Positions 4,020 through 27,954 of a stretch of 64,000 bases of DNA are shown here, one piece after another (position 1 is the stretch's first letter; every line of letters begins with the position of its first letter). The stretch lies in contig NZ_CP102258.1 in NCBI RefSeq assembly GCF_025146565.1, positions 992,001 through 1,056,000 of the forward strand, in the 5' to 3' direction. The notes under the pieces were generated by a model. That model was not told the origin of the DNA. It was given only the letters and a program-made list of their open reading frames with translations, and did no database searches. A program made the position numbers and the translations under genes. This DNA comes from Bacteroides eggerthii. GTDB lineage: Bacteria > Bacteroidota > Bacteroidia > Bacteroidales > Bacteroidaceae.

Positions 4020-5900
4020 TCAGTTCAGCCTATTGAACGTAATCCTTGATGGATGCTCTTTTTGATGAAGCACTTTGATTGTTGATTTGATAAAATCGTT
4101 ATTGCTGCATTGATATATGTCAACAAATTGCTGCGGATTCCGGTCTACTAAGGGAAACCAACTGCTTTGTATCTGAACAACAATTTTGTGTCCCTTCTTA
4201 AATGTATGTGCTATGTCGTTCATGGAAAAGCAGATACGAGTGGGGTGATTGGGAGTAAAGGCTTCAGGATGTTCGAAGCTATTCCTGTATCTTCCTCTCA
4301 TTACTTCTCCCCGTATTAGCATTTGATATCCGTTCATTAGATAGGTGTGCTTTTGAGACGGATTTTGATAATCATCAGGATATTCATCTATAATCTTAAC
4401 CACGAAATCTGCATCTGTTGTAGTTATGGCAACTTCTAGCTCGGCTTTAATGGCGCCGCCTAGGGTAATGTTTTCTTTTAGCGGTTCGGTCTTAAAAGAT
4501 AATACATCTGGGCGGCGTTCGGAAAAACGCTGGTCGTCTGTCATATATTCTTTAGGGCGGGTATATGTAGTCTTGTCTGTATATGGTACGGGCTTATCAG
4601 GGTCTGATATATACTCTGAATAAGATTCCTTTTTTTCTGGAGGACACATGTTTAATGTTCCGTTTTCGCCCAAATAGAATGAAAGGGGGTGTGTGCCTGT
4701 TGGTGGCCATGCATGGAATTGCTTCCACTCGTTTTTTCCGGAGAAGAAAACGGTTGCCTTTTGTGATGTGGGAGTGGAGTTTCCTGTATTGTTCAAGTGG
4801 TATTGTAGGAAAGGATATTCTATATTATTACGGTAATATAGAACTGTTTGAGAACCGAAATCTATATTGCCGAGGTTGCTCTGGCCTTTACCATTCCAAG
4901 CGCCATGATGCCATGGTCCCATAATAATTTCCAAATCGGTTTGAGGGCTTTGCTTGCGAATAGCCTTGTATAACTCCCAGGCTCCATAGCAATCTTCTGC
5001 GTCGAATAGACCTCCCACTATTAATACAGCGGGATCAATATCGTAACAGGAACGACGGCTGTCCCGTTCTTGCCACCATTGGTCATAATTTGGATGTTCC
5101 ATCAATTCTTTCCAATAGGTGATGCTGTCACCTGCAATGCGAGTTAAGTCTTTCAGGCTGCCAACATTCAGAAAAAAGGAGTATTCATCTGTTAGGTAAT
5201 AGGGCTTGGCTGGTGGCAGGTTGTCGGTCGGGGTGGGGCGCGGGCGATTGACTGAAGTGGCAAATCTGAAACCGTCGCAAAGCATAAATGCGCCGTTGTG
5301 GTGATAGTCATCCCCCATGAACCAGTCGGTGACAGGGGCTTGGGGAACTACGGCTTTGATTGCCGGGTGCTTACTTAGTGCCCCCATGAGTGCATAAAAT
5401 CCTGAATACGAGGATCCGATAATACCGATATTTCCGTTGTTGTGTGTATGGGATAACAACCATTCGGCTGTATCATATACATCACTGGCTTCATCTGTGT
5501 CATCCTGTTTTGTTTTATTGCGGATGAACGGGCGTACATTGATGAACTCACCTTCGCTCTTCCAACGTCCTCGCACGTCCTGTATTACAAAAATATATTT
5601 TTCGTGGGCATACTTTTTCCATATGCCCCATAGCTTGTTGTTAAACTTCTTTCCGTAGGGTGATGCCTTGTAGGGCGTCCGGGTCATTAATATAGGTGCT
5701 TTTTGGGTTTGCTGGAGTGGTTCGTATATTGCGGTGTATAAGCATATGCCGTCTCGCATGGGAATCATAACTTCTTTTTTATGGTAGTTCTCGGTTATCC
5801 AAGCTTCAGTTATCTCTTGTGCCGATAGATTAAGTGATAGCCAGATATAAAGCAGGGTAAAGCATAAGGCCTTACCCTGTTGATTTATTGAATGGATCAT
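4020..5900 (-). CDS. Secreted alpha-amino-acid ester hydrolase (CocE/NonD, S15 family)
   Basis: Start chosen at 5900 so that the protein begins with a signal peptide (MIHSINQQGKALCFTLLYIW, cleavage near LSAQ). An upstream ATG at 5933 would overlap the regulator gene. The mature alpha/beta-hydrolase carries nucleophile S164 in GSSYSG, acid D300 and H332 in GPWHHG. The residues that separate amino-acid ester hydrolases from cocaine esterase are also here: D198 (34 after the serine, in GDDYHHNGAF) and E302/D303 in LFDAEDCYGAW. This trio corresponds to the carboxylate cluster that holds the substrate alpha-amino group (D208, E309, D310 in the Xanthomonas enzyme). I infer cleavage of an aminoacyl ester in the periplasm, possibly D-alanyl esters of teichoic acid. 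It follows the DeoR-type regulator after 25 bp and is probably cotranscribed. Annotation pipelines may call it glutaryl-7-ACA acylase or X-Pro peptidase. Confidence 0.82.
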   Translation of the reverse strand: MIHSINQQGKALCFTLLYIWLSLNLSAQEITEAWITENYHKKEVMIPMRDGICLYTAIYEPLQQTQKAPILMTRTPYKASPYGKKFNNKLWGIWKKYAHEKYIFVIQDVRGRWKSEGEFINVRPFIRNKTKQDDTDEASDVYDTAEWLLSHTHNNGNIGIIGSSYSGFYALMGALSKHPAIKAVVPQAPVTDWFMGDDYHHNGAFMLCDGFRFATSVNRPRPTPTDNLPPAKPYYLTDEYSFFLNVGSLKDLTRIAGDSITYWKELMEHPNYDQWWQERDSRRSCYDIDPAVLIVGGLFDAEDCYGAWELYKAIRKQSPQTDLEIIMGPWHHGAWNGKGQSNLGNIDFGSQTVLYYRNNIEYPFLQYHLNNTGNSTPTSQKATVFFSGKNEWKQFHAWPPTGTHPLSFYLGENGTLNMCPPEKKESYSEYISDPDKPVPYTDKTTYTRPKEYMTDDQRFSERRPDVLSFKTEPLKENITLGGAIKAELEVAITTTDADFVVKIIDEYPDDYQNPSQKHTYLMNGYQMLIRGEVMRGRYRNSFEHPEAFTPNHPTRICFSMNDIAHTFKKGHKIVVQIQSSWFPLVDRNPQQFVDIYQCSNNDFIKSTIKVLHQKEHPSRITFNRLN

Positions 5901-5925
5901 GATATTAGATGTAATATATGCTATA

Positions 5926-6690
5926 TTAAACAATGATAAGCTCTATCCCGATTTCTTCGATAGACTGTGCCATTGCTTTGGATATTCCAGAATCTGTGAT
6001 GATGACGTCTACCCGGTTGAGGTCACAAATCTTGCCGAAGCCTCTCCGTCCGAATTTTGAGGAATCAGCCAATATGATTGTACGCAGGGAAGCTTCTATC
6101 ATTTTCTTGTTTAGATTGGCTTCTGCGATATTTGAGTTGGTGATTCCATGTTCCAAGTCAATTCCGTCTACTCCCAAAAAAAGTTTGGAGCAGGTGATTT
6201 GTTCAAAAAGTTGTGAAGTATAATCGCCAATTACAGAACAAGAATTTTTTCTGACTGTACCTCCTAATTGGATAACTTCTATGTTATTGACTGCATTCAG
6301 CAATATGGCTGTTTTTAAAGAGGCAGTCACTACGATTAAATGTTCTATCGGAGTCAGTTGCTCTGCAAGCATGTGGACGGTTGATCCTGAAGCTATAATA
6401 ATAGAGTCGTTTTTCTCTATTAGTTTAGCCGCGGCTATTGCGATTCTTTTCTTTTCGTTTGTTTGCAGCTTTTCTTTCTCCTGAACATTGATCTCCGGAG
6501 TCACGGGATTAATGGGGCTTGCACTTCCATGAGTGCGGTAAAGCAGTTTCTTCTCTTCTAAATATTTTAGATCTTTTCGAATGGTAACGGGAGTGACCTC
6601 CAGGTCTTTAGCGATATCATTTACTTTGATAAAGCCATTCCTGTTTAAACATTCAAGGATATACTTATGTCTTTCTGCTATACTTGTCAT
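5926..6690 (-). CDS. DeoR/GlpR-family transcriptional regulator
   Basis: A 254-residue repressor-type protein with an N-terminal winged helix-turn-helix (VNDIAKDLEVTPVTIRKDL, residues about 23-41) and a DeoR C-terminal sensor domain containing FLGVDGID and LADSSKFGRRGF. Family members bind phosphorylated sugars or polyols, and GlpR binds glycerol 3-phosphate. It is divergent from the glycerophosphodiesterase / G1P dehydrogenase operon, its likely target. It is a clear paralog of the regulator at 37784-38569, sharing CSKLF-GVDGID and the ADSSKFGRRGF block, which controls the glpABC locus. The inducer here may be glycerol 1-phosphate or a related compound (inference). Confidence 0.9.
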   Translation of the reverse strand: MTSIAERHKYILECLNRNGFIKVNDIAKDLEVTPVTIRKDLKYLEEKKLLYRTHGSASPINPVTPEINVQEKEKLQTNEKKRIAIAAAKLIEKNDSIIIASGSTVHMLAEQLTPIEHLIVVTASLKTAILLNAVNNIEVIQLGGTVRKNSCSVIGDYTSQLFEQITCSKLFLGVDGIDLEHGITNSNIAEANLNKKMIEASLRTIILADSSKFGRRGFGKICDLNRVDVIITDSGISKAMAQSIEEIGIELIIV

Positions 6691-7081
6691 TTGAAATTCT
6701 ATTTTTTACAAAGGTAAACTAAATCTTAATAAATAACAAATGAAAGTTGTAAAAGTTTCATTATATAATGTAAGTTTCTACTTATTTCTTTTTTTTATTT
6801 CTAAAAACGAAAAAATATTTGCTTTTTTTGTTGTGGTGTATTTCTTTTTATGTATTTTTGCAGTGTTATTTCTTTCTATTCGTTTCGTGTTTTCGAAAAA
6901 CGAATATTAAACAAAAGAAAACGAAATAATCTGCTTGCCCATGAAAGTATGCTAAAACAGAGAAATAGGAAAGCTGGATGTGATATTTATCATTAAGCAT
7001 TTTATTACGTTACCTGTGTGGTGAGTAAGATTTGAATAATGAGTGATTTGTTTAATGTGGAATTTTAAAAAAAATAGTACC
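6691..7081. promoter_or_regulatory. Divergent control region with TTTCGTTT-type operators
   Basis: This 391-bp AT-rich region separates the regulator from the glycerophosphodiesterase operon and holds no gene. On the plus strand a Bacteroides-like promoter is visible: TTTG at 6827-6830 and TATTTTTG at 6853-6860. Copies of AAACGAAA or its complement occur at 6805-6812 and 6919-6926. An inverted repeat ATTCGTTT / AAACGAAT spans 6878-6905, just downstream of the expected transcription start, where a repressor would block elongation. TTCG...CGAA dyads are typical of GlpR-type operators. Binding by the adjacent regulator is inferred. Confidence 0.6.
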
Positions 7082-7987
7082 ATGAAAAACTATGCAAAGC
7101 TATTTAAAACGTCAATGGCTCTCCTTATGCTGGGAGGCCTGTTGGTGGCACCGGATTTGTCTGCACAGAATAAACTGAACACACTGAAATTTGATAAAAC
7201 ATCTCAGCTGAGAGACTTTTTTAGCTATAAAGGAGACGGAACGATACTGGTTAGCGGTCATCGTGGAGGATACGAGGTGGGTTATGCGGAGAACTGTATA
7301 GAAGGGCTGGAGAATGTTCTTACCCAAATGCCCGCTTTCTTTGAAATAGATCCTCGCCTGACTAAAGACAGTGTGATTGTACTAATGCACGATGCAACTT
7401 TGGATCGTACTACCACAGGGAAAGGTAAGGTAAAAGACTATACATGGGAGGAGCTTCAGTCGCTTCGTTTGAAAGATCATTCCGGTAAAGTGACAGATTG
7501 CCGTATTCCGACTTTAGAAGAAGTTATTGTTTGGAGTAAAGGCAAAACAATTATCAATTTAGATAAAAAGGATGTTCCGATGTCTATGATCGCAGCTTTG
7601 ATAAAAAAGCATAGAGCAGAAAAACATGTAATGCTGACAGTGCATACAGGTGCACAGGCGAGGTACTATTACGACCGTTTTCCTGATATTATGATGTCTG
7701 TCTTTGCTCGCAACATGAAAGAGTTTGAAGATATATCAATTTCGGGTGTACCTTGGGAAAACATGATTGCTTATGTTGGCCGCACTTTAACTCCGGAGAA
7801 TAGTAAAATATGCGAAATGCTTCATGCGTATGGAGTGCGTTGTATGATTAGTGTAGCACCGACACATGACAAACTGCCTACTATTGAAGAACGTGCGGCA
7901 AAATATAAGGAGGAGATTGACAAGAGGCCGGATATTATAGAATCGGATATACCGACGGAAGTGTGGAAGGTCTTGCACTCTCGGTAA
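7082..7987 (+). CDS. Secreted glycerophosphodiester phosphodiesterase
   Basis: Start set at 7082, where a signal peptide begins (MKNYAKLFKTSMALLMLGGL, cleavage after DLSAQ). An in-frame ATG at 7043 gives no signal sequence at its N-terminus. GDPD-family catalytic residues are present: H60-R61 in SGHRGG, the metal ligands E88 and D90 in FEIDPRL, and H103 in LMHDATLDRTTTG. The enzyme should hydrolyse glycerophosphodiesters to glycerol phosphate and an alcohol in the periplasm. GlpQ-type relatives act on phospholipid head groups and on teichoic acids. It is the first gene of an operon with G1P dehydrogenase (85 bp gap), transporter, phosphatase and EEP phosphodiesterase. Confidence 0.9.
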   Translation: MKNYAKLFKTSMALLMLGGLLVAPDLSAQNKLNTLKFDKTSQLRDFFSYKGDGTILVSGHRGGYEVGYAENCIEGLENVLTQMPAFFEIDPRLTKDSVIVLMHDATLDRTTTGKGKVKDYTWEELQSLRLKDHSGKVTDCRIPTLEEVIVWSKGKTIINLDKKDVPMSMIAALIKKHRAEKHVMLTVHTGAQARYYYDRFPDIMMSVFARNMKEFEDISISGVPWENMIAYVGRTLTPENSKICEMLHAYGVRCMISVAPTHDKLPTIEERAAKYKEEIDKRPDIIESDIPTEVWKVLHSR

Positions 7988-8072
7988 TTGATTTGTCTTC
8001 CGGAAATGAATATCCCGGAGTTTGTGATAAAAATAACCTAATGGATAATTTAATAATAAGGAAATTATAAAT

Positions 8073-9413
8073 ATGTCAAGAATTGAAGATGCCTTGAAGG
8101 CTGCGAATGAGACTTGTGCTCTTCGTATAGGTAGTGAAGTGTTAAATGAGGTCGCTGTTATGTTTAAAGAGCAGTTTCCCGGGAAAAGGGCGGTAGTCGT
8201 TGCTGATGAAACAACTTGGGATGTTGCTGGTAAAAAAGTGGAAGAAGAATTGAAAAAGGCAGGGGTGAGGTTGCAACCGGCATTCATCTTTACACAGCCG
8301 GACCTGTATGCTGAATATTCTTATATCGATCTTTTGGTCGAATCGTTGAAAGAGCATGACGCAATACCGGTAGCGGTAGGTTCTGGAACAATCAATGATT
8401 TGACAAAACTTTCCTCTCATCTGACAGGCAGGAGATATATGTGTGTAGCCACTGCGGCTTCTATGGATGGTTATACGGCATTTGGAGCGTCGATTACGGC
8501 GGAGGGTGCCAAACAAACGTTTAGTTGTCCGGCTCCTTTGGCTGTTTTGGCCGATACGAACATCATTAGAAAAGCTCCCGGCGTTATGACTGCTTCCGGG
8601 TATGCGGATTTATTTGCAAAAGTTACAGCAGGAGCTGACTGGATACTGGCTGATTGGATGGGTGTTGAGAAAATAGATGAGACTGCTTGGAGTATTGTTC
8701 AGGATGGTCTGCATGATGCTTTGGCAAATCCGGAGGGCGCTGCTGCAGGTGATGATGAGGCTATATCGCAACTGATTGAGGGGCTTATGCTGGGAGGTTT
8801 TGCTATGCAGTGGTCTAAATCAAGTCGGCCTGCTTCCGGTGCAGAGCACCAGTTTAGCCATCTTTGGAATATGGAACACCATTTGAATAATGGCGAACAT
8901 ATATCTCATGGATTTCAAGTCAGTATAGGAATGTTGGCTGTTACGGCATTCTATGAACAGGTTCTGAGGACCCCTTTGGAAAACTTGGATGTCGAAGCCT
9001 GTTGTGCAGCATGGCCGACTCCGGAGGAATTGAAGAAAGCTGCGCTCGAAATGTTTGTAGGAACTGATTTTCCGAATATCGGAGTACAGGAAACGAAAGC
9101 TAAGTACGTGACACGTGAAGAATTGGCCGTTCAGTTGCAGCAGTTGAAAGAATATTGGCCGAAAATTCGGGAACGCCTACTTGCACAGTTGCTTCCTTAT
9201 AAAGAAGTAAAACGGCGCTTGGAGTTGGTTGGGGCTCCTACGGAACCGGAACAAATCGGTATTACGAGGAAGCGTTTACGTGATACGTTTATTCGTGCGC
9301 AATTTATCCGTCGCCGTTTTACTGTGCTTGATCTTGCTGTGCGTAGCGGTTATATGAAGCAATGGTTGGACGGTTTGTTCGGCAAAGGAAAGATTTGGGA
9401 GATAACGGAATAA
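8073..9413 (+). CDS. sn-Glycerol-1-phosphate dehydrogenase (EgsA/AraM family)
   Basis: Interconverts sn-glycerol 1-phosphate and dihydroxyacetone phosphate with NAD(P), in the cytosol. The 446-residue protein belongs to the iron-type dehydrogenase superfamily. It has the nucleotide loop VGSGTINDLTK (102-112), the family block ATAASMDGYTAFGASI (127-141) and metal ligands consistent with D179 (GYADLF), H259 or H263 (AEHQFSHLW) and H279 (ISHGF). Archaea use this enzyme to make lipid backbones and Bacillus AraM makes a glyceryl ether precursor. Here it lies between a secreted phosphodiesterase and a glycerophosphate transporter, so a catabolic role is more likely (inference). It is longer than archaeal EgsA (about 350) and nearer to AraM (about 394). 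Confidence 0.88.
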   Translation: MSRIEDALKAANETCALRIGSEVLNEVAVMFKEQFPGKRAVVVADETTWDVAGKKVEEELKKAGVRLQPAFIFTQPDLYAEYSYIDLLVESLKEHDAIPVAVGSGTINDLTKLSSHLTGRRYMCVATAASMDGYTAFGASITAEGAKQTFSCPAPLAVLADTNIIRKAPGVMTASGYADLFAKVTAGADWILADWMGVEKIDETAWSIVQDGLHDALANPEGAAAGDDEAISQLIEGLMLGGFAMQWSKSSRPASGAEHQFSHLWNMEHHLNNGEHISHGFQVSIGMLAVTAFYEQVLRTPLENLDVEACCAAWPTPEELKKAALEMFVGTDFPNIGVQETKAKYVTREELAVQLQQLKEYWPKIRERLLAQLLPYKEVKRRLELVGAPTEPEQIGITRKRLRDTFIRAQFIRRRFTVLDLAVRSGYMKQWLDGLFGKGKIWEITE

Positions 9414-9426: not shown

Positions 9427-10707
9427 ATGAAACAGGAGGGAATGACGCCTGAGGTGGCAAAGAAGTTTAAGTACTGGCAAACACGAACTATTATAGCAAG
9501 CATGATAGGCTATGCTTTGTTTTATTTTGTTCGTAAGAACCTAAGTATAGCGATGCCTGCCATGCAGGAAGATTTAGGCATCACAAAAGGAGATTTGGGA
9601 TTGTTCCTGACACTACATGGGTTGCTGTATGGGGTTTCAAAGTTCGCTAACGGTTTTATTGGCGATCGTGTGAATGCACGCTATTTTATGGTGACAGGAT
9701 TGGTACTTTCCGCCGTTTGTAATATTTTGTTTGGATTTAGTTCTGCGGTGCTTGTATTTGGCATCGTTTGGATGCTGAACGGCTGGTTTCAAGGGATGGG
9801 TTTTCCGCCTTGTGCTCGTTTGCTGACTCACTGGATTCCTCCTACGCAACTTGCAACCAAAATGTCCATATGGAATACTTCACATTCTATTGGTGCCGGC
9901 TTGGTGGTGATAGTATGCGGATATATTGTTAGCCTTGGGTGGCGTTGGTGCTTTTGGTTTCCTTCCATTATTGCTTTGGTAGGTGCGGTGGGACTTTGGT
10001 TTGCTCTGCGCGACACCCCTCGTTCTGTGGGCTTGCCGGAACTTAATCAAAAGGGAGCCGGCGAAGCTAAGGAAGAATCTTCCAAGGAGTTTAAGGCTTT
10101 TGTACGGAAACATGTTTTTGGAAACCCCACTATTTGGGTATTAGCCTTTGCTAATTTCTTTGTGTATATTGTCCGTTACGCTGTGCTTGATTGGGGACCT
10201 ACCCTTTTAGGAGAATGGAAAGGCATCTCCATTCAACATGCCGGCTGGATGGTCGCTGCCTTTGAAATCTCTGGTATTTTGGGGATGTTGACGGCAGGTT
10301 GGGCGACAGACCGCTTCTTTGGCGGGCGCGGACCACGAGTTTGCGTGCTTTGTATGGCTTTGGCTACGGTGTTTATAGCTTTATTTTGGGGATTACAAGA
10401 ACCTTCGATGTGGTTGGCTACATGTTTGCTCGGAGCTGCCGGATTCTGCATTTATGGCCCTCAGGCACTCGTCGGTATTGCTGCAGCCAATATAGCTACC
10501 AAAAAGGCGGCGGCTACGGCCGTTGGCTTTACAGGGTTGTTTGGTTATGCCAGTACGTTGGTTTCAGGTTGGGGATTAGGACTTCTGGCTCAACATTATG
10601 GTTGGGATGTAGCGGTCGGCGCGTTGATCTTAATAGCAGTTGTTGGTACTCTTATTTTTATGGCTGCATGGACGGCTAAAGCGAATGGATATGATGAAGG
10701 TAATTGA
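9427..10707 (+). CDS. GlpT/UhpT-family organophosphate:phosphate antiporter
   Basis: A 426-residue, 12-segment MFS protein of the organophosphate:Pi antiporter family. Residues important in E. coli GlpT are matched: R36 in FVRKNLSIAMP, K72 in GVSKF, H153 in WNTSHSIG and R250 in YIVRYAVLDW. It should import glycerol phosphate across the inner membrane in exchange for phosphate. It differs from the second GlpT homologue in this window at the substrate-side helix (WNTSHSIGAG here, WNCAHNVGGA there), so specificity may differ. Gaps of 13 and 12 bp to its neighbours place it in the G1P dehydrogenase operon. Confidence 0.9.
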   Translation: MKQEGMTPEVAKKFKYWQTRTIIASMIGYALFYFVRKNLSIAMPAMQEDLGITKGDLGLFLTLHGLLYGVSKFANGFIGDRVNARYFMVTGLVLSAVCNILFGFSSAVLVFGIVWMLNGWFQGMGFPPCARLLTHWIPPTQLATKMSIWNTSHSIGAGLVVIVCGYIVSLGWRWCFWFPSIIALVGAVGLWFALRDTPRSVGLPELNQKGAGEAKEESSKEFKAFVRKHVFGNPTIWVLAFANFFVYIVRYAVLDWGPTLLGEWKGISIQHAGWMVAAFEISGILGMLTAGWATDRFFGGRGPRVCVLCMALATVFIALFWGLQEPSMWLATCLLGAAGFCIYGPQALVGIAAANIATKKAAATAVGFTGLFGYASTLVSGWGLGLLAQHYGWDVAVGALILIAVVGTLIFMAAWTAKANGYDEGN

Positions 10708-10719: not shown

Positions 10720-11562
10720 ATGGATATAAATGAAATAATATTGGAAAAGGTTCGCCGAGTGAAGCATGTAGCTTTAGATATGGATGGGACTATTTATAAT
10801 GGAGGGACGCTTTTCCCTTTTACGATTGGTTTTTTGGATAAAATGAAAGAGCTGGGTATTGGCTATTCGTTTTTGACTAATAATCCTTCGAGAAGTACTA
10901 ACGATTATTTGAAGCATTTGAATGATATGGGAATTAAGGCTTCAAAAGATGAGTTCTATACGTCAGCTCAGGCTACAATCGATTATCTCCGGTTGTATCG
11001 TCCTGATTGTAAGCGGCTTTTCATTTTGGGGACTCCAAGCATGATAAAAGAGTTTGAGGAGGCCGGGTTTGAGTCTACAATGGACGATGCAAATGATGAG
11101 CCGGATGCTGTTGTTGTAGGATTTGATATGTCCTTGGTATATTCGCGCTTGTGTCGTGCTGCGTGGTGGATTAATCAGAAGAAGCTTTATCTTGCGACTA
11201 ACCCAGACCGGATATGCCCGACTGATAAATCCTTGGTGCTGGTTGATTGTGGGTCTATTTGTTCAAGTTTGGAGCATGCCACCGGGCGAAAGCCGGATAT
11301 GGTTATCGGCAAGCCTGATCCTCGAATGTTGAACGGTATCATGGAACGTCATAATCTGCAAGCTGAACAAATAGCTATGGTTGGTGATCGGATTTATACG
11401 GATATTCTTATGGCACAGCGGGCAAACGCTCTGTCGGTGTTGGTTCTTTCAGGAGAGACAACGCATAAGGAAGCTGTGGCTCTTCAGCCTAACCCGGATT
11501 TGATTATGCGCGATTTGGCGGAATTTCAGGAAATGATTTTATTAGCACATAGTACGTTTTAA
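10720..11562 (+). CDS. HAD-IIA (NagD/AraL-like) phosphatase
   Basis: A 280-residue cytosolic HAD hydrolase with the nucleophile motif LDMDGTIY (D20, acid/base D22), the motif II block FLTNNPSRS, and the C-terminal VIGKPDPRML and MVGDRIYTDILMA segments. The length and C2b cap type fit the NagD/AraL subfamily, which dephosphorylates sugar and polyol phosphates; mammalian glycerol-3-phosphate phosphatase also belongs here. Its position beside G1P dehydrogenase mirrors araL-araM of Bacillus subtilis. I infer dephosphorylation of glycerol phosphate or an overflow metabolite. The substrate cannot be read from sequence. Confidence 0.85.
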   Translation: MDINEIILEKVRRVKHVALDMDGTIYNGGTLFPFTIGFLDKMKELGIGYSFLTNNPSRSTNDYLKHLNDMGIKASKDEFYTSAQATIDYLRLYRPDCKRLFILGTPSMIKEFEEAGFESTMDDANDEPDAVVVGFDMSLVYSRLCRAAWWINQKKLYLATNPDRICPTDKSLVLVDCGSICSSLEHATGRKPDMVIGKPDPRMLNGIMERHNLQAEQIAMVGDRIYTDILMAQRANALSVLVLSGETTHKEAVALQPNPDLIMRDLAEFQEMILLAHSTF

Positions 11563-11565
11563 TAT

Positions 11566-14451: not shown

Positions 14452-14808
14452 ATCATTTCGATTGTTGATGATTTATATACCGCAAATATAATAATTTGTG
14501 GAAGATAGGGCAGATAAATACTCTTTGAAATTGTGACTTTTAACTTTTATTGGACGTCTCTCTTGTTGCGTTTAGCTTTGCTTTTAATGATTTTGTATTG
14601 CGTTTGTGTTTCATTTGTGTTTCTTTTTCTTTAATATTTATTCTTATTTTGCATTTTTCTTTCGTTTTCTTGCTATTATTTTCGTTTTTTATTTGCTGTA
14701 TTATTTTTTATATTTATATTTGTCGCGGAAAGTTATCTAAATGAATATGACGACAGATTAAATTTCGTTTATAAATATCTGATATTAATTATTATAATAT
14801 ATAAGACT
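14452..14808. promoter_or_regulatory. Divergent control region for GH13 and the SusC/D operon
   Basis: A 357-bp, very T-rich region with no gene. On the plus strand TTTG (14692-14695), 19 bp, and TATATTTG (14715-14722) form a textbook Bacteroides promoter for the lipoprotein/SusC operon. On the minus strand TATATTTG (complement of 14483-14490) is a candidate -7 box for the GH13 gene. TTTCGTTT occurs exactly three times: 14660-14667, 14680-14687 (20 bp apart, on the same helix face) and 14763-14770 in the leader. The same octamer recurs before the glycerophosphodiesterase operon, suggesting one regulator for both. Confidence 0.62.
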
Positions 14809-20400: not shown

Positions 20401-20768
20401 GGACGGAGGAGAATCCTAACCCCAACGCTTATTGGCCCCGTTTGGTGGGATATTCTTCTGAAAATGGCGGACGCCCGATGGGAACGCCGAATAACCGCTA
20501 TATGCAGGATGCTTCTTACTTGCGTCTGAAAGCGCTGACCGTTGATTATTCATTGCCGCAGGCATGGGTGTCTAAGTTAGGACTGACCGGATTGAAGATT
20601 TATTTCACCGGCGAAAATCTCTTCACATTCTCCAATGTATGTGAGAATTTCGACCCTGAAGTGATCAAGGGCGGTGATGTCGATTTGAAAGACCGTAAAG
20701 GTGAGGAACAGGGATATAGTTATCCGATGCTGAAAACGTATACGGTAGGATTGAATGTTTCATTCTAA
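17493..20768 (+). CDS. SusC/RagA-family TonB-dependent outer membrane transporter
   Basis: Start placed at 17493 (MKTINVNKTCRIAVFSLACC, cleavage near SWAD) rather than 17469, giving 1091 residues. After the signal comes a carboxypeptidase-like domain (VKGCVRDQNGEPLIGVTVRV), the TonB box DEVVVVGYG, a plug with SLQGQIPNLNI, and the DGVEGDPNSVNPQDIESVSV and DASSAAVYGARG signatures of SusC proteins. The barrel ends in the aromatic residue Phe. It imports oligomeric ligand across the outer membrane with its SusD partner, whose gene begins just after. Ligand is not predictable from sequence alone; neighbours suggest a glycerol-phosphate glycopolymer. Confidence 0.96.
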   Translation: MKTINVNKTCRIAVFSLACCLAAPSWADDLNRDELDVRYESQAVMQKELVKGCVRDQNGEPLIGVTVRVQGTSQGTITDIDGNYSLALPSKQTKLEFSFIGYNTVVLTPGSRKSLDVTLKEDVKALDEVVVVGYGTMKKRDLVGAVDHINSEALEGRSTPSLTRSLQGQIPNLNISMRDGKPDRGASYNIRGTTSIGAGGEALILIDGVEGDPNSVNPQDIESVSVLKDASSAAVYGARGTFGVVLITTKNAQKGGVKVNYNGSFSFSQRTVEPDLVTNGLQWTDDFVEAFVNNKGTMPTSINNIFPYTPEWHEELRRHDANPDLPKVQINENTGQYEYFGNTDWDKLLYKDVTAGTDHSMSITGGNDIANFYVSGRFFSQDGIYRANTDDYQRGNFRAKGSIKIKPWLSIDNNFDMMHKTYHYPLISYDQTLNIQRNMEQQGFPMAVMYNPDGSLTYSAVYCAVGDFYNESSYQDQTTLQYKNTFGVNITPIKDVLKFRGDFTYVNTAYKRNRVLNYVPYSTGPEQFAEKGKSIMMDNKDETRYMAANLNGTWTPKLGKNHALSVMGGWNLETSNKDTFYSERDGFLFPDRPNYDLMDGLNYKLEQGDKNWSYVGVFYRLNYGYKGRYLIETSGRYDGSSKFPVNEMWGFFPSASAAWRISEEKFMEGTRSWLDNLKLRFSVGTLGNGNVDPYKFLPTMSIDKTGVIVGDGQVNYTSYPGLIPNNLTWEKVTTYDVGVDVDMFKNRLTIGFDWYRRNTTDMYTVGPTLPEVLGTTQPKGNYADLKTKGWELTLSWRDNFKLAGSDFHYGVKFMLWDSQSWITKYNNATGKLSDYYEGYRIGDIWGYNIEGLFTSYDEIANHADQDYMKISDSKIWQPGDLKFADLNGDGKIDKGAQTLSDHGDLVIVGNEEERYHYGFNLNVGWKGIGISAFFQGVGKRDWYPGQETGFFWGKYNRPYGYSLKMHENRWTEENPNPNAYWPRLVGYSSENGGRPMGTPNNRYMQDASYLRLKALTVDYSLPQAWVSKLGLTGLKIYFTGENLFTFSNVCENFDPEVIKGGDVDLKDRKGEEQGYSYPMLKTYTVGLNVSF

Positions 20769-20784: not shown

Positions 20785-22554
20785 ATGAAAAAAATATATT
20801 TATATGCAATGGCATTGGGACTGATGTTCGCGTCATGCGAGGATTTCTTGACCGAATATCCCAAAAATAAGATAACGCCTGATGATTTCTTTAAGACAGA
20901 GCGCGAGATAAGTCTTTATGCAAATTCTTTTTATGAAAAAGATATGCCGGGAGTCGGCGTGGCTACCGGAGACGGTGTGTCCGATATTATGGAGGTGGTT
21001 TCGGTCAGTTCGTATCTGAGCTCGGGTTATGGACCTGACAATCAAGGCGGATGGAGCTGGAGTGACTTACGGAATATCAACTATTTCATTGACCGCCTGA
21101 AGCAATCGCCGGTAAGTGACGATATCAAGAACAAATATATGGGATTGGCTAAGTTCTGGCGTGCCAAATTCTATTTCGAGAAAGTGAAAACTTTCGGTGG
21201 AGTTCCTTATTACGACTATTGCCTGGAACCTGACGATGAGGCACTGTATAAACCTCGTGACTCAAGAGAGTTCGTAATGGACAAGGTCTTGAATGACCTG
21301 AATGAAGCTGTAAAATACCTCACTGACAAAAAAGATGAGACTTGTACAACAGTCACCCGATACGTAGCATTGGCAATGAAGGCGCGCGTATGCTTACATG
21401 AAGGTACATTCCGTAAATATCATACGGAAATGAATTTGCCGGATGCGGACAAATGGATCAGGGAGGCGGCTTCGGCTGCAGAGGAGTTGATAAATTCCAA
21501 GCAATACAAACTGTTGAATACCGGTGAGGCTGAAAAGGATTACCGCAAATTGTTTACGGCGGAGAACAGAACAGGTGTACGCTCCATTTTGGATGAGACT
21601 ATTTGGGCACAGGTGTATGATGCCGAATTTCGTCGTTGGCATGATGTGACATGGAAGTACAATTCCGCTACGGCAGGTTCCCGCTGGTCGTTGACCCGTT
21701 CATTCGTTAACACTTATTTGATGAGGGACGGTAGCCGTTTTACGGACAAAGCCGGTTATGAGACGATGACTTTCCCACAGGAAGTGAAAGATCGTGATTG
21801 CCGTTTGAAGCAGACGATCCGTACTCCGGGTTACAAGCGTATAAGTAAAGATAAGGAAATAACGGTTTTGCCGGATTTCACTATTACATTGAGCGGCTAT
21901 CACATGATGAAATGGTCTTTGGACGATACATTCTATGATGGTCAGGCGGAAGCCACAAACGCAATGCCTATATTCCGGTATGCCGAAATCTTGCTGATTT
22001 ATGCAGAAGCTAAAGCCGAACTCGGCGAGTTCACTTCGGATACATGGAACAAAACGATCAAACTGCTGCGTGAACGGGCCGGTGTCAACGGTAAGGAACC
22101 TGAAACTGCGGATTCTTATATGCAGGAAACCTACTATCCGGATATAGCGGACAAATATTTGTTGGAAATCAGACGCGAACGCGCCATTGAGCTGATAGCA
22201 GAGGACCGTCGTTATGATGACCTGATGCGCTGGAAAGCGGCAGACCTGTTTGCTGCAAACAGAACGAAGTGGGAAGGTATTTACATTCCGAAAGTGAATG
22301 AAGGCTACGATTTGGACGGTGACGGAAAGAATGACGTATGTTTTTATAAAGGCACTAAGCCCGGTATTTCAGGAGTCAAGTTCGTGCAGCTTGGCGGTAA
22401 CCTCACCCTTTCGGGCGAAAAAAGTGGCTATTTGGTTTGGGGAGAAGCTTTCCAACGGGAATGGGATGATAAGAAATATCTTCGCCCTATACCGAGAAAT
22501 GTCAGGGTTATAAATCCGGCTTTGGAGCAGAATCCGGGTTGGGAAGAGAACTAA
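20785..22554 (+). CDS. SusD/RagB-family outer membrane lipoprotein
   Basis: Start set at 20785 so that a lipoprotein signal is used (MKKIYLYAMALGLMFASCED, cysteine 18); the 10 residues before it overlap the SusC 3' end. The protein of 589 residues has the SusD landmarks FLTEYPKN at the N-terminus, a tetratricopeptide-like region (AKFWRAKFYFEKVKTFGGVP), a RYAEILLIYAEAKAELGE helix and an ERAIELIAEDRRYDDLMRWK block. It caps the SusC barrel and captures ligand at the cell surface. The gene lies 16 bp after SusC. Confidence 0.96.
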   Translation: MKKIYLYAMALGLMFASCEDFLTEYPKNKITPDDFFKTEREISLYANSFYEKDMPGVGVATGDGVSDIMEVVSVSSYLSSGYGPDNQGGWSWSDLRNINYFIDRLKQSPVSDDIKNKYMGLAKFWRAKFYFEKVKTFGGVPYYDYCLEPDDEALYKPRDSREFVMDKVLNDLNEAVKYLTDKKDETCTTVTRYVALAMKARVCLHEGTFRKYHTEMNLPDADKWIREAASAAEELINSKQYKLLNTGEAEKDYRKLFTAENRTGVRSILDETIWAQVYDAEFRRWHDVTWKYNSATAGSRWSLTRSFVNTYLMRDGSRFTDKAGYETMTFPQEVKDRDCRLKQTIRTPGYKRISKDKEITVLPDFTITLSGYHMMKWSLDDTFYDGQAEATNAMPIFRYAEILLIYAEAKAELGEFTSDTWNKTIKLLRERAGVNGKEPETADSYMQETYYPDIADKYLLEIRRERAIELIAEDRRYDDLMRWKAADLFAANRTKWEGIYIPKVNEGYDLDGDGKNDVCFYKGTKPGISGVKFVQLGGNLTLSGEKSGYLVWGEAFQREWDDKKYLRPIPRNVRVINPALEQNPGWEEN

Positions 22555-22690
22555 GTATATAATTTAGTGATGTGATATAAATGATGTTGATGTATCTAAG
22601 AGTACATCTTTCGGCCTCTATCAGTCTATATTTGACTGTCGGATGTAATGTCTTTCTTAAAGCGACAGCAATCGGGCATAAAATAAAAAA

Positions 22691-24373
22691 ATGAAAATAG
22701 TGGAAATTATGAAATGGATTATACTTGTTAGCCTGTTCCTCGTTGGCGGAATGGTGAAAGCTCAACATCTTCCGCAATGGTTGGAAAAGGCGGTGGTTTA
22801 TCAAATCTATCCGGCCTCTTTCAAAGATAGTGATGGTGACGGTATCGGTGATTTGAAAGGAATTGAATCGCAATTGGACTATATCAAGTCCATTGGAGTG
22901 AACACGATTTGGATTAGTCCGGTGTTTTCCTCCGAGTTCTTTGATGGTGGGTATGATGTGACAGATTTCTATTCTGTGGACAAGCGTTATGGAACAAATT
23001 CCCAGTTGGTGAGTCTTGTTCAGAAAGTACATGAAAAAGGAATGAAAATTTTTATGGATCTTGTGGCAGGACATACCTCGGACAAGCATCCCTGGTTTTT
23101 GCAATCAAAGCAGGCTGATAAGAACTTGCAATATAGCGATTATTTCATCTGGACACCTACCAAAGCGGAAAAACCGAAACAGTTTGTTGCCACAGACTGT
23201 GAACGTGACGGCAATTACATGGAGAATTTTTTTGATTGCCAGCCAGCACTGAACTATGGGTATGCCAATCCCAATCCGGAGCATCCTTGGGAACAGTCGG
23301 TGGACGCTCCCGGCCCGCAAGCGGTTCGGCGTGAATTGAAGAATATTATTTCTTTTTGGATGGATAAAGGTATGGACGGCTTTCGGGTGGATATGGCATA
23401 CAGCCTGATAAAGAATGATCCGAAGCACATCGAGACAAGCCGTTTATGGAAAGGCGTTAGCACTTGGTTCAAAGAAAAATATCCGGAGGGAGCTTTTATT
23501 GCCGAATGGGGAGAACCGACCAATTCTATTGGCGGCGGATTTCATATCGATTTTCTGTTCCATATCGGACGGAAAGGGTATACTTCTCTCTTCTTCAACA
23601 AGAAAAAAACGGAAGATATCAATTGCTATTTCGGGTTGGAAGGAGCAGGACAGGTTAAGCAGTTTGTAGAGATGTACCAGAAAGAATATGGAGAAACGAA
23701 AGGAAAAGGCTATATCTCCTTGCCGACTTCCAACCATGATATATGGCGTCTGGCTTGCGGAAAACGTACGGACTTGAAACAGTTGAAAGTAGCAATGACT
23801 TTCTTGCTGACTATGCCGGGAGTTCCTTGCATCTATTATGGTGATGAAATAGGAATGAAGTATATTGAAGGACTTCCCGACGTGGAGGGTAGCGTGCTTG
23901 CTTCGCGGAATCGTGCCGGAAGCCGTACGCCTATGCAGTGGGACGGTTCTGTCAACTTGGGCTTTTCTACTGCTCCCGCAGAAAAGTTGTATATCCCGGT
24001 TGACCCGGCAGAGGATGCCCCCACTGTGGAACAACAGCAAGCAGATGAGAACTCTTTGTTGAACTATGTACGTGACGTATTGAAATTGCGTGATTCTTCC
24101 AAGGCTTTAGGGAATACAGGAGACTGGAGAATGATCAGTAACGTGGAGCAGCCTTATCCTTTGATCTATTTGCGTGAAGCGGATGGAGAACGTTATTGTG
24201 TGGCTGTAAACCCAAGCGCGAAGAAAGTGACGGCGAAGTTTCCGACATTCAACTCCGGAAAGTGGGAAATGGTGTTGGGCGATAAAAAGCAGGCGAAGTA
24301 TAAAGGCGGTACAACAGAGGACTGCATAAAGATGGCACCCGTATCTGCTGTGATTTTCAAGATTAACGAATAA
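22691..24373 (+). CDS. Secreted GH13 alpha-glucosidase-like enzyme (copy 2)
   Basis: 560 residues with a signal peptide (ending near GGMVKA). A second in-frame ATG at 22709 is also plausible. Catalytic residues are D234 (FRVDMAYS), E272 (AEWGEP) and D350 within a complete SNHD motif. Region I is DLVAGH, as in the paralog at 12769-14451. Acts on alpha-glucosides, probably exo, in the periplasm. It follows SusD after 136 bp, which contain a small hairpin (GATGTA / TACATC, 22589-22608), and its stop overlaps the GH65 start. The coupling suggests sequential action with GH65. Confidence 0.92.
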   Translation: MKIVEIMKWIILVSLFLVGGMVKAQHLPQWLEKAVVYQIYPASFKDSDGDGIGDLKGIESQLDYIKSIGVNTIWISPVFSSEFFDGGYDVTDFYSVDKRYGTNSQLVSLVQKVHEKGMKIFMDLVAGHTSDKHPWFLQSKQADKNLQYSDYFIWTPTKAEKPKQFVATDCERDGNYMENFFDCQPALNYGYANPNPEHPWEQSVDAPGPQAVRRELKNIISFWMDKGMDGFRVDMAYSLIKNDPKHIETSRLWKGVSTWFKEKYPEGAFIAEWGEPTNSIGGGFHIDFLFHIGRKGYTSLFFNKKKTEDINCYFGLEGAGQVKQFVEMYQKEYGETKGKGYISLPTSNHDIWRLACGKRTDLKQLKVAMTFLLTMPGVPCIYYGDEIGMKYIEGLPDVEGSVLASRNRAGSRTPMQWDGSVNLGFSTAPAEKLYIPVDPAEDAPTVEQQQADENSLLNYVRDVLKLRDSSKALGNTGDWRMISNVEQPYPLIYLREADGERYCVAVNPSAKKVTAKFPTFNSGKWEMVLGDKKQAKYKGGTTEDCIKMAPVSAVIFKINE

Positions 24374-26391
24374 TGCGGATGAGAAATATTGTTCTGGCAA
24401 TTCTGCTATTCACTTGCGTGTCATTGGCTGCACAAGACAATGGCTGGAAATTGACTGCTACCGACGCCGACGCAGCCTATGTCGGTGCTCCGGTAGCCAA
24501 TGGCGGTATCGGAATATTACCTTGGAAAGAACCTTTTTCGGTGCGGCATGTCATTCTGAACCATGTATTCGAGAACGGAGGTAAACATGGTGTCAGTCGG
24601 GTATTGCGGGGTATAAATCCTTTTTTGCTTTCGCTGAAGGTGGATGATGTGGCCGTTGAGGGGAAGAACATTGCCGGTTGGCGGCAGGAGATTGACATGA
24701 AGGCTGCTGCCCACATCACATCGTTTGATGCGCTGAATAAGGTGAAAGTGAGGTATAGTATTCGTGCGTTGAGGAATATGCCTTACGCCGGAATGATTCA
24801 GGTAGAAATAAAGGCTCTTGAGAACTGTGCGGTACAGGTGTTGCAGCGGACGGAAGTCCCGAAAGAATACGGTGTGCCCGATACGGTCTATACCAAGATG
24901 AAAGGCGGACAAGCCGGGCAGTACGTTGTGAGTGTCAGTGCGCCTTCTCGGTATGGTACGCACAAGGTGACGGGTTCGGCGGGCTTTGTTTATGAAAAGA
25001 AAGCGTTCGATTTCCGATTGTTGAAAGAAGCGGGGGCTATATCTATCTCCCGCACATTGCAGAAAGGAGAAACCGTAAAGTTTGCCCTTTTGGGTACGGT
25101 ATGCTCCACCCGGGATTTTGCCGATCCTTATGGTGAATCCATACGCCAGGTTGTTTATGCCAATTATGAGGGGACGGATCGTTTGCTGGAAGCGCATCAG
25201 GCTACCTGGGACGAGCTTTGGGGAGGTGATGTAATTATAGAAGGAGATGAAGAGGCACAGCGCAATGTACGTTTTGCTCTTTATAATCTTTATTCTTTCG
25301 GACGGGCAGGAAGCCGTTTGAGCATTCCGCCGATGGGACTTTCGGCACAAGGATATAATGGACATATCTTTTGGGATACGGAATTGTGGATGTATCCGCC
25401 GATGCTATTGCTGAATCAAGGGATAGCCCGTTCCATGATGGATTATCGTACCGACCGCATGGAGGGGGCGGCTTGTCGTGCTTATGCCCATGGCTATAAA
25501 GGTGTCATGTTCCCTTGGGAGTCGGATGATGCCGGTATGGAGTCCACTCCTGTATGGGCTTTGACCGGACCGTTTGAACATCACATCACAGCCGATGTGG
25601 CAATTGCCGCCTGGCATTATTATTGTGTGACGAAAGATCGTGAATGGCTGGTCGAGACAGGCTATCCTTTGCTGAAAGAAGTTGCTGCATTTTGGGAAAG
25701 TCGTGTCAGGAAGATGCCCGACGGCGGTTATGCGATAGCCAATGTGGTGGGAGCCAATGAATATGCCAGCGGTGTGACGGATAACGCGTTTACCAATGGT
25801 GCGGCTGTTTGCGCCTTGAAGTATGCGGTAAGTGCAGCCGAAGCCTGCGGGGAAGAAGCCCCCGCCGTATGGAACGATATTGCGGAGAATCTGCGCTTTC
25901 ACTCGTTTGGCAACGGGGTGACGAAAGAGCATGAAAAGTATAAAGGAGCTATGATTAAGCAAGCGGACGTCAATCTGTTGGGCTATCCGCTGGAGGTGGT
26001 TACCGATCCTGAAACTTTAAAGAAAGATTTGGAGTATTATGCCGGGAAGATAGATCCGAAGCATGGTCCTGCAATGTCCTATTCTGCTTTCTGTGTGCAG
26101 TATGCCCGTTTGGGTGATGCGGATAAAGCCTATGAAATGTTCCGCCGTTCTTATGTCCCTAATTTGCGTCCTCCCTTTGGAGTGTTGGCGGAAACTCCCA
26201 CCAGTCAGAATCCTTATTTTGCCACAGGTGCAGGAGGATTGCTGCAAGCTGTTATCAACGGCTTTGCCGGGTTAAGGATAACGGAAAACGGGGTGGTGCA
26301 ACTGCCTTCGGTATTGCCGAAACATTGGACGAAGGTTGTCATAAAAGGAGTGGGTCCTGAAAAAAAAGACTACGTAAGAGAACGAAAATAG
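24373..26391 (+). CDS. Secreted GH65 glycoside hydrolase, kojibiosidase-like
   Basis: 672 residues with a signal peptide (cleavage near SLAAQD). The (alpha/alpha)6 GH65 core shows HIFWDTELWMYPPMLLLN (331-348), the general acid E463 in GANEYASGVTDNAFTN and E607 in VLAETPTSQNPYF. A glutamate at the second position, instead of the phosphate-binding loop of maltose and kojibiose phosphorylases, points to a hydrolase, like the Flavobacterium kojibiose hydrolase and the mammalian glucosyl-galactosyl-hydroxylysine glucosidase. The start overlaps the GH13 stop by one base. Kojibiose decorates enterococcal lipoteichoic acid, which fits the phosphoglycerol genes nearby; trehalose or nigerose remain possible. 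Confidence 0.85.
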   Translation: MRMRNIVLAILLFTCVSLAAQDNGWKLTATDADAAYVGAPVANGGIGILPWKEPFSVRHVILNHVFENGGKHGVSRVLRGINPFLLSLKVDDVAVEGKNIAGWRQEIDMKAAAHITSFDALNKVKVRYSIRALRNMPYAGMIQVEIKALENCAVQVLQRTEVPKEYGVPDTVYTKMKGGQAGQYVVSVSAPSRYGTHKVTGSAGFVYEKKAFDFRLLKEAGAISISRTLQKGETVKFALLGTVCSTRDFADPYGESIRQVVYANYEGTDRLLEAHQATWDELWGGDVIIEGDEEAQRNVRFALYNLYSFGRAGSRLSIPPMGLSAQGYNGHIFWDTELWMYPPMLLLNQGIARSMMDYRTDRMEGAACRAYAHGYKGVMFPWESDDAGMESTPVWALTGPFEHHITADVAIAAWHYYCVTKDREWLVETGYPLLKEVAAFWESRVRKMPDGGYAIANVVGANEYASGVTDNAFTNGAAVCALKYAVSAAEACGEEAPAVWNDIAENLRFHSFGNGVTKEHEKYKGAMIKQADVNLLGYPLEVVTDPETLKKDLEYYAGKIDPKHGPAMSYSAFCVQYARLGDADKAYEMFRRSYVPNLRPPFGVLAETPTSQNPYFATGAGGLLQAVINGFAGLRITENGVVQLPSVLPKHWTKVVIKGVGPEKKDYVRERK

Positions 26392-26422
26392 AATGTAATC
26401 TGTGGTGTGTTGTTTTTACCGG

Positions 26423-26467
26423 AATCCCTATAAGTCTTCAAAAAGAGGCTTATAGGGATTTGTTTTT
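26423..26467 (+). terminator. Terminator of the SusC/D operon
   Basis: A stem AATCCCTATAAG (from 26423) pairs with CTTATAGGGATT (to 26460) and is followed by TGTTTTT. It separates the GH65 gene from the alkaline phosphatase. Confidence 0.88.
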
Positions 26468-26489
26468 AACACAAACGCAATTATTACGG

Positions 26490-26511
26490 AACGAAAAATG
26501 TTCTATCTTTG
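26490..26511 (+). promoter_or_regulatory. Candidate promoter and operator of the alkaline phosphatase gene
   Basis: TATCTTTG (26504-26511) fits the Bacteroides -7 box and lies about 30 bp before the start codon. GAACGAAA (26489-26496) just upstream differs by one base from the AAACGAAA octamer found before the two operons to the left, so shared regulation is possible. Confidence 0.45.
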
Positions 26512-26541
26512 CTCCGCATTAATAAATAAAGGGTTATTGCA

Positions 26542-27954
26542 ATGAAACAGGTTATAAGAAGACATGTAGCTGTACTGCTGGTCATATTTCTGGTAAGTAC
26601 AGTTTGGGCGCAACAGGCAAAGTATGTATTTTATTTCATTGGAGATGGAATGGGGGTAAACCAAGTGAATGGTGCTGAGATGTATCTGGCTGAACAGGAA
26701 GGGCGTATTGGAGTAAAGCCGCTTTTGTTCACCACATTTCCGGCGGGTACGATGGCAACGACCTTTTCCGCTACCAATTCGGTGACCGATTCTTCTGCGG
26801 CGGGTACGGCACTTGCCACCGGAGAGAAAACCTATAACGGTGCTGTCAGTATGGATGATGACAAAAACGTCCTGAGCACCGTTGCCGAAAGAGCGAAGAA
26901 AGCCGGCCGGAAAGTGGGCATCGCTACCAGTGTCAGTGTGGACCATGCTACTCCTGCGGCGTTCTATGCCCATCAGCCCAATCGTAGCAGGTATTATGAG
27001 ATTGCACTTGATTTACCGAAAGCCGGTTTCGACTTCTATGCGGGCAGCGGCTTCCTGAAGCCCACCACGACTGCCGATAAGAAAGAGGCTCCGAACGTTT
27101 TTCCTATTATAGAAGAAGCGGGCTACACTATTGCGAGGGGACTGGATGAATACAAGGAAAAAGCTGCGGATGCAAAGAAAATGATACTTATCCAGAAAGA
27201 GGGCGCCGAACCCTCCTGCTTGCCTTATGCCATAGACCACGAAGAGGGGGATTTGACTTTGCCTGAGATAACGGAAAGCGCGGTTACCTTTTTGTCTAAA
27301 GGAAACAAAAAAGGTTTCTTCCTCATGGTGGAAGGCGGCAAGATAGACTGGGCGTGCCATAGCAACGATCCGGTTACCGTTTTTGAAGAGGTCATCGATT
27401 TGGACAATGCGGTGAGGGTTGCTTATGAGTTCTACAAAAAGCATCCGAAGGAAACCCTGATTGTTGTAACTGCCGACCATGAGACCGGTGGCATGGGATT
27501 GGGCATCGGGAAATATGAACTGCATCTGAAATCTTTGCTGAATCAGAAGCAATCCCAAGACCTTCTTTCCAAAGCGATTACCGATTTGCGGAAAGATAAG
27601 GCCGGAAAAGCTTCATGGAATGAGATAAAGGATTTGCTTACAGAGAAAATGGGCTTTTGGAAAGAACTGCCTTTGACTTGGGAGCAGGAGAAAATGCTTC
27701 GTGATGAATATGAACAGTCGTTTGTGAAAAACAAAGTAGTTTTTGAGGAGAGTCTTTATGCAAGGACCGAACCTTTGGCTGCTGCTGCCAGAAAGGTTAT
27801 GAGCCAGATAGCAATGGTGGGGTGGACCAGTTCCAGTCATACGGCGGGGTATGTGCCTGTGTTTGCGATAGGCGCAGGAGCCGACTTGTTTACCGGCAAG
27901 ATGGATAATACGGAAATTCCGAAACGTATTGCGAAAGCAGCAGGATATAAGTAA
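26542..27954 (+). CDS. Secreted alkaline phosphatase
   Basis: 470 residues with a signal peptide (cleavage near TVWAQQ). Metal and catalytic motifs of the PhoA family are present: D35 in IGDGMG, nucleophile S84 in VTDSSAAGTALATG, SVSVDHATPAAFYAH near 130, VEGGKIDWACH and the C-terminal VVTADHETGGMG. It releases phosphate from phosphomonoesters in the periplasm, for example glycerol phosphate. It has its own promoter and terminators on both sides, but sits directly beside the GH65/SusCD operon. Confidence 0.93.
   Translation: MKQVIRRHVAVLLVIFLVSTVWAQQAKYVFYFIGDGMGVNQVNGAEMYLAEQEGRIGVKPLLFTTFPAGTMATTFSATNSVTDSSAAGTALATGEKTYNGAVSMDDDKNVLSTVAERAKKAGRKVGIATSVSVDHATPAAFYAHQPNRSRYYEIALDLPKAGFDFYAGSGFLKPTTTADKKEAPNVFPIIEEAGYTIARGLDEYKEKAADAKKMILIQKEGAEPSCLPYAIDHEEGDLTLPEITESAVTFLSKGNKKGFFLMVEGGKIDWACHSNDPVTVFEEVIDLDNAVRVAYEFYKKHPKETLIVVTADHETGGMGLGIGKYELHLKSLLNQKQSQDLLSKAITDLRKDKAGKASWNEIKDLLTEKMGFWKELPLTWEQEKMLRDEYEQSFVKNKVVFEESLYARTEPLAAAARKVMSQIAMVGWTSSSHTAGYVPVFAIGAGADLFTGKMDNTEIPKRIAKAAGYK

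Follow-up and report, generated by a model that had tools for sequence, protein, structure and literature searches.

What does Bacteroides eggerthii gain from a gene block in which a SusC/SusD pair is combined with phosphodiesterases, glucosidases and enzymes of glycerol phosphate metabolism? The block lies at positions 4020 to 27954 of the window analysed here, a stretch of 64,000 nucleotides (contig NZ_CP102258.1, positions 992,001 to 1,056,000) from a genome that consists of one 4.2-Mb contig. An initial annotation had proposed that it serves the utilisation of lipoteichoic acid (LTA). On the evidence below it is probable that this is a SusC/SusD-centred locus for the binding, uptake and breakdown of glycerol-phosphate polymers that are aminoacylated and alpha-glucosylated, LTA being the most likely one, and that the released sn-glycerol-1-phosphate (G1P) is fed into glycolysis. 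The full story, that the Bacteroides eats the LTA of Gram-positive neighbours by gripping it with a phage-type propeller, stripping off D-alanine and kojibiose, cutting the chain and burning G1P, the archaeal-type enantiomer, via a dedicated dehydrogenase, is a tentative proposal, attractive and yet slightly more doubtful than assured.

Gene content and proposed route

All 15 open frames of the annotation are present with the families claimed for them, as judged from the frame list and family-model scans: Peptidase_S15/CocE_NonD, DeoR, GDPD, Fe-ADH_2 (G1P dehydrogenase-like, G1PDH), a GlpT/PgtP-type MFS transporter, HAD-IIA, Exo_endo_phos (EEP), two Alpha-amylase proteins (GH13a and GH13b), two lipoproteins (LipA and LipB), SusC, SusD, GH65 and Alk_phosphatase (ALP). 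As in a polysaccharide utilisation locus (PUL), susC and susD homologues are adjacent and have degradative enzymes alongside. Secretion signals and lipobox cysteines were read by eye from the sequence; the esterase, GDPD, EEP, both GH13, GH65 and the phosphatase carry Sec-type signal peptides, SusD and the two lipoproteins have a lipobox cysteine, and G1PDH, GlpT and HAD show no signal. The description as one contiguous block is right for the gene content and has to be given up for transcription, as there are several transcription units, with CocE-DeoR and GH13a on the minus strand.

From gene content, active-site conservation, a fold match, the SusCD/G1PDH linkage and the placement of repeats, which were all computed, we infer the following route. 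The surface proteins LipA (with a propeller of the phage-receptor type), LipB and SusD would hold on to the chain, with SusC as its importer. Once it is in the periplasm, an alpha-amino-acid ester hydrolase (AEH) would remove aminoacyl esters. Of the kojibiosyl side chains, GH65 would cleave the alpha-1,2 bond and the two GH13 enzymes would release the glucose adjoining glycerol. The backbone would be broken at its phosphodiester bonds by EEP and GDPD, and the alkaline phosphatase would free phosphate from some of the products. Uptake of glycerol phosphate would then fall to GlpT, and oxidation of G1P to dihydroxyacetone phosphate to the dehydrogenase in the cytoplasm, while the enantiomer sn-glycerol-3-phosphate (G3P) and glycerophosphodiesters would be covered by a glpABC-glpT-GDPD-porin cluster 10 kb downstream, which has its own DeoR gene and a phosphate-type porin. 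The DeoR repressor of the block would control both halves.

The simplest substrate that would give work to all of these enzymes is a poly-glycerol-phosphate with glycosyl and aminoacyl groups, and the expectation that each bond type has a matching enzyme holds at the level of prediction, with active-site evidence for the AEH and the kojibiose hydrolase. The best-fitting example known to us is enterococcal LTA, which carries kojibiose and D-alanine (PMC7188991). For LTA itself the claim has to be relaxed: the enzyme set fits it, but sequence does not tell LTA apart from other glycerol-phosphate polymers that are aminoacylated or glycosylated.

The ester hydrolase

The claim of a secreted AEH is backed by the comparison with solved structures, in which AEH entries (1mpx, 376 bits; 2b4k, 353 bits) score far above cocaine esterase (166 bits); the best match of all, 4pf1 with 381 bits, is named only Peptidase S15/CocE/NonD. 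The catalytic triad, the tyrosines of the oxyanion hole and the carboxylate cluster (Asp/Glu/Asp) are retained in the esterase, as indeed is every active-site residue named for the Xanthomonas AEH (1mpx), where that cluster has been linked to alpha-amino acids (PMC3890990). The Xanthomonas enzyme is known for beta-lactam synthesis, whereas the natural substrate of the block's esterase is a prediction. The motifs are identical in nine relatives. In six other genomes of the genus (L124-L129), an esterase of 54-56% identity that shares these motifs is immediately followed by a G1PDH of 45-47% identity and then, in every case, by a gene with GDPD motifs (Pfam-checked in one); the window's SusC and SusD have no match in the 14-20 kb around this trio. 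Such a pairing of esterase and G1PDH is what would be needed for aminoacylated poly-G1P or for aminoacyl-phosphatidylglycerol as the substrate.

The G1P half

The dehydrogenase belongs to the Fe-ADH_2 family and is similar to solved G1PDHs. Matches to it occur in 15 of 148 genomes of a relatives sample, the own genome counted, and in a phylum-wide sample of 395 genomes only the window's own copy was found at E 1e-60. The 93 other G1PDH loci compared here are the best 80 of 222 from one search plus 13 from another, with three duplicate pairs and several loci cut by contig ends; neighbours were called at bit thresholds. The neighbours are GlpT (68 loci), HAD (68), DeoR (30), GDPD (28) and SusD of the window's lineage (13), more rarely CocE (9), LipA (5), LipB (4), EEP (3) and GH13 (1), and never GH65 or ALP. 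Also other glycerol-phosphate genes are found at such loci: GlpD-like FAD enzymes (L130, L136), a MIP channel with glycerol kinase (L028), and a GlpA-like gene followed by two genes resembling GlpB and GlpC (L135).

A HAD-IIA gene next to a G1PDH gene is known also from araL-araM of Bacillus subtilis. G1P ether lipids require PcrB. The own genome lacks it, as do 12 of the 13 further genomes with a G1PDH that were searched (several of them incomplete); ether-lipid synthesis as the role of the G1PDH was therefore discarded, and catabolism appears to be the better reading of the G1P half. AraM of B. subtilis is likewise a bacterial G1PDH of the Fe-ADH_2 family, and there G1P leads to ether lipids, whereas the block lacks PcrB and its neighbouring genes look catabolic (PMC5059525).

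Regulation

The motif [AT]TTCGTTT occurs 14 times in the window, four times in the DeoR/GDPD intergenic region, three times in the GH13a/LipA region and seven times elsewhere, and in none of the 13 other intergenic regions of at least 150 bp. In simulations on a first-order background, the two intergenic counts were reached in 0 and 4 of 2000 runs. As the repeats stand in both promoter regions they suggest, without proving it, that one DeoR regulator controls both halves. Among relatives, TTTCGTTT is present in 18 of 21 DeoR regions, a count without a chance control from regions of widely varying length.

The SusC/SusD lineage

The expected link of SusCD and G1PDH recurs across several families: the 13 loci with a SusD of the window's lineage (two of them near-identical copies from one genome) are more than chance would give. 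In a tree of 47 SusD proteins, from which six distant rows of a first tree were omitted, the window's SusD falls into a clade of 12 rows (support 100/99), each of which stands beside a G1PDH, and two more G1PDH-linked rows (L028, L037) fall elsewhere. Surveys of 395 genomes of the phylum and 393 of the order placed none of 32 sites in this clade, with 16 of the 24 non-own sites of the phylum survey fetched and the other 8 (38-43% identical) outside the trees. Relatives of LipB immediately precede SusC in L004, L010 and L061. Two Prolixibacteraceae SusCD/G1PDH loci, L004 and L072, lack GH65 and encode a Bac_rhamnosid6H-type glycosidase, as though one side-chain enzyme had taken the place of another.

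Deeper SusD kin are informative because they are free of the bias that comes with retrieval via G1PDH. An EEP gene lies within 6 kb at 8 of 19 such sites (15 genomes searched for EEP). With 85 EEP matches spread over about 66 Mb one would expect about 0.3, although sites that are related do not count as independent. One more site has two GDPD genes and three have genes of phospholipase C or phosphoesterase families. At 16 order-level sites, a Pfam-confirmed EEP is nearby at five, GDPD with an MFS transporter at one, and a GlpD-like enzyme with a GlpT-like transporter and DeoR at one, with two others (L188, L189) alike by eye; at the remaining seven no such glycerol-phosphate or phosphodiesterase gene was seen. 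A SusD match was found in 10 plasmid records; in both of the two that were read (L191, Parabacteroides distasonis; L192, Bacteroides fragilis) the SusD is followed by an EEP gene. The window's SusCD is thus a member of a lineage that is often linked to phosphodiesterases, for which the Flavobacterium Pus loci are a precedent (PMC8115612).

The same kinship lends some weight to a different substrate. In the manner of Pus, SusCD and the lipoproteins could take up glycerophosphoglycerol-type products of phosphatidylglycerol or aminoacyl-phosphatidylglycerol, and the glucosidases would be there by chance or serve for glycolipid headgroups. For aminoacyl-phosphatidylglycerol, too, an amino-acid ester hydrolase would be required, and G1P could arise from it. 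The EEP, GDPD, phospholipase C or phosphatase genes beside deeper SusD kin fit such headgroup scavenging, and the Pus loci, which are induced at low phosphate, are thought to target lipid headgroups and nucleic acids (PMC8115612). However, it leaves no clear role for two GH13, a kojibiose hydrolase and a propeller of the teichoic-acid type, the operator-like repeats are found also in the GH13a/LipA promoter, and the neighbourhood suggests control by the DeoR gene and not by phosphate, so that scavenging of headgroups is rather unlikely.

Still less probable is a polysaccharide decorated with glycerol phosphate, for which the bifidobacterial lipoglycan with alanyl-glycerol-1-phosphate side chains and the streptococcal and enterococcal rhamnose polysaccharides with glycerol phosphate are candidates. 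Going by these polymer structures, the logic of esterase, phosphodiesterase and G1P would fit here too, and the glycosidase of the two Prolixibacteraceae loci points the same way, but the scan of the 15 proteins showed neither a galactofuranosidase or rhamnosidase nor any other enzyme for a polysaccharide backbone.

The glucosidases

On the glycerol-phosphate polymer reading, the side chains would be the task of GH65 and GH13. The three residues of the kojibiose site (Trp/Glu/Thr) are present in GH65 and the phosphate site is missing, as in the FjGH65A group of kojibiose hydrolases. When mapped on FjGH65A, the acid and base glutamates, four residues of subsite -1 and the three kojibiose-recognising residues of subsite +1 are kept, and one +2 residue is changed from Trp to Tyr (PMC8626586). 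The nearest PDB structures of GH13b are oligo-1,6- and alpha-glucosidases.

GH65 was considered as a marker of teichoic-acid loci and rejected, since in 19 of 21 other GH65 loci none of GDPD, GlpT-like or EEP was seen (similarity labels, no Pfam). It does meet phosphodiesterases in L142, a SusCD locus with two GDPD, an MFS transporter, two calcineurin-like phosphoesterases and GH31, which is possibly a second locus for a glycerol-phosphate polymer, and in L173, which has an EEP and a SusD that joins the sister clade on a long branch. A close GH65 is absent genome-wide in the B. bouchesdurhonensis-like G030 and in G044, and viral contigs gave no match.

The surface lipoproteins

LipA is predicted to share the fold of teichoic-acid-binding phage proteins, a Phage_RBD_prop-like five-bladed propeller (cf. 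PF21311). Unlike Gp45, the receptor-binding protein of the Staphylococcus aureus phages phi11 and 80alpha (PMC4901313, PMC7048315, PMC4876445), to which it is about 16% identical, LipA is a lipoprotein and has neither a stem nor a tower domain. A profile of the LipA alignment matched PDB entries only weakly (best E 0.047, an alginate lyase; NF5 phage receptor-binding protein, E 0.35). No relatives of LipA were found by sequence in phage records or viral contigs, and therefore no phage origin is claimed. In L001 and L002 (13490-15610), EEP and the propeller form one fused protein of 706 amino acids, and there are four such fusions among 96 homologues; the fusion in these two relatives reads more like a loss there than a gain in the window. 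In another homologue (P0071, Pseudopedobacter) the propeller is fused to a CE2/GDSL esterase. A structure model of LipB was discarded because of its mean pLDDT of 46.7.

Co-conservation and counterevidence

Several observations weigh against a dedicated locus for LTA. The closest relatives, B. faecichinchillae (L001), B. bouchesdurhonensis (L002) and a Bacteroides metagenome-assembled genome (L003), keep esterase, DeoR, G1PDH, GlpT, HAD and EEP, and in this stretch they have no SusCD of the window's lineage, GH13, GH65 or ALP; the GDPD is fragmentary in L001 and L002. A fourth Bacteroides locus, L136 (G044), lacks SusCD, GH13, GH65 and ALP and also the esterase and the window's EEP. The dehydrogenase scores below the cut-off of the archaeal-type equivalog (NF002022, 179 vs 413 bits), hence "G1PDH-like". 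Eleven of the 12 SusDs in the clade were retrieved via G1PDH and two pairs among them are near-identical, so the linkage is partly a matter of ascertainment. In the own genome, the window's SusD is the one of 41 that is nearest to an EEP (9.1 kb), which is a weak control because the next two distances (10.5 and 11.8 kb) are not much longer. The shared fold alone does not establish the function of LipA, and phi11 recognises N-acetylglucosamine on wall teichoic acid, not kojibiosyl glycerol phosphate. Finally, no lipobox was found by eye on any of the enzymes, so that no surface-anchored depolymerase is predicted, and as the block encodes neither such a depolymerase nor a surface-anchored lipase, the polymer would have to enter uncut, either as such or in a shed, de-acylated form.

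The glucosidases raise the same doubt. The absence of GH65 from all 93 other G1PDH loci and of GH13 from all but one (some cut by contig ends) makes the glucosidase part lineage-specific. A GH65 of the kojibiose-hydrolase type belongs to the branched-dextran locus FjDexUL of Flavobacterium (PMC10316084), and GH65 or the GH13-GH65 pair is found with other SusCD lineages (L143, L169, L170). The annotation had itself named separate occurrence of the SusCD-GH13-GH65 part and the G1P operon as a ground against its proposal; this is partly what was found, as the G1P half stands alone in the closest Bacteroides, although the SusCD/G1PDH link recurs. The block could thus be two unrelated neighbouring modules, a G1P operon and an ordinary PUL for an alpha-glucan (kojibiose or branched dextran). 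This is very improbable, because the window's SusD is a member of the clade linked to G1PDH, GH65 is found with phosphodiesterases in unrelated loci as well, the operator-like repeats are common to both halves, and GH66, GH31 and GH97 are absent among the 15 scanned proteins, which leaves SusCD without the GH66 or GH31 that would mark a branched-dextran PUL. Taken together, glycerol-phosphate catabolism by a dedicated SusCD locus is, as a prediction, well supported by the comparative evidence.

Relation to known systems

No described locus for LTA utilisation was found in short ranked results from open-licence PMC text. The block is like Flavobacterium Pus/PusCD in that EEP, GDPD and ALP are co-located with SusCD, with similar neighbours for related SusCD, but it adds a G1P dehydrogenase, an amino-acid ester hydrolase, a kojibiose hydrolase, a phage-type propeller and a DeoR regulator, and Pus is a phosphate-starvation response (PMC8115612). 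With FjDexUL it shares SusCD and a GH65 kojibiose hydrolase; the eight genes listed for that locus include GH66, GH31 and GH97, and none of them is for a phosphodiesterase or for glycerol phosphate (PMC10316084). If the proposal is right, Gram-positive envelope polymers are a nutrient of Bacteroides, which would link feeding between species, the removal of an inflammatory polymer and the use of the rare enantiomer G1P. AraM-type dehydrogenases of Bacteroidota would gain a catabolic purpose, a receptor-binding fold of phages would serve in nutrient capture, and a SusCD lineage would have phosphodiester substrates instead of plain glycans.

Layout of the locus

Table 1. Features of the block and of the second glycerol-phosphate cluster (window positions)
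Feature	Positions	Strand	Basis or remark
Alpha-amino-acid ester hydrolase, secreted (CocE/NonD, S15 fold)	4020..5900	-	predicted aminoacyl (D-alanyl) ester removal; frame listed from TTG 5933, ATG preceding the signal peptide at 5900
DeoR-family repressor (AgaR/GlpR-like)	5926..6690	-	family models; operator-like repeats nearby
Divergent promoter region, putative DeoR operator	6691..7081	.	four [AT]TTCGTTT sites within 6691-7042
GDPD, secreted, predicted glycerophosphodiesterase	7082..7987	+	PDB 3mz2, 305 bits; frame listed from GTG 7043, ATG at 7082
sn-Glycerol-1-phosphate dehydrogenase, AraM/EgsA type	8073..9413	+	predicted G1P to dihydroxyacetone phosphate
Organophosphate:phosphate antiporter, GlpT/PgtP type	9427..10707	+	family models
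HAD-IIA phosphatase	10720..11562	+	family models
EEP-family phosphodiesterase, secreted	11566..12657	+	predicted cutter of the phosphodiester backbone
GH13a, secreted, alpha-glucosidase-like	12769..14451	-	family models
Divergent promoter region	14452..14808	.	three TTTCGTTT sites (14660, 14680, 14763)
LipA, surface lipoprotein, Phage_RBD_prop-like five-bladed propeller	14809..15939	+	predicted teichoic-acid binder
LipB, surface lipoprotein	15983..17482	+	Ig-like N-terminal part
SusC TonB-dependent transporter	17493..20768	+	frame listed from 17469
SusD lipoprotein	20785..22554	+	G1PDH-linked clade; frame listed from 20755
GH13b, secreted, alpha-glucosidase-like	22691..24373	+
GH65 kojibiose hydrolase (alpha-1,2-glucosidase), secreted	24373..26391	+	NCBI kojibiose-hydrolase model NF053734, 877 bits, cut-off 800
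Alkaline phosphatase, secreted	26542..27954	+
Second glycerol-phosphate cluster, outside the block: DeoR (-), GlpA, GlpB, GlpC, GlpT, GDPD lipoprotein, Porin_O_P	37784..47283	.	predicted G3P route

In the three closest relatives, the downstream genes are inverted in order, and at 28360-31334 of the window the LpxH, RadC and glycosyltransferase genes are inverted with respect to these relatives.

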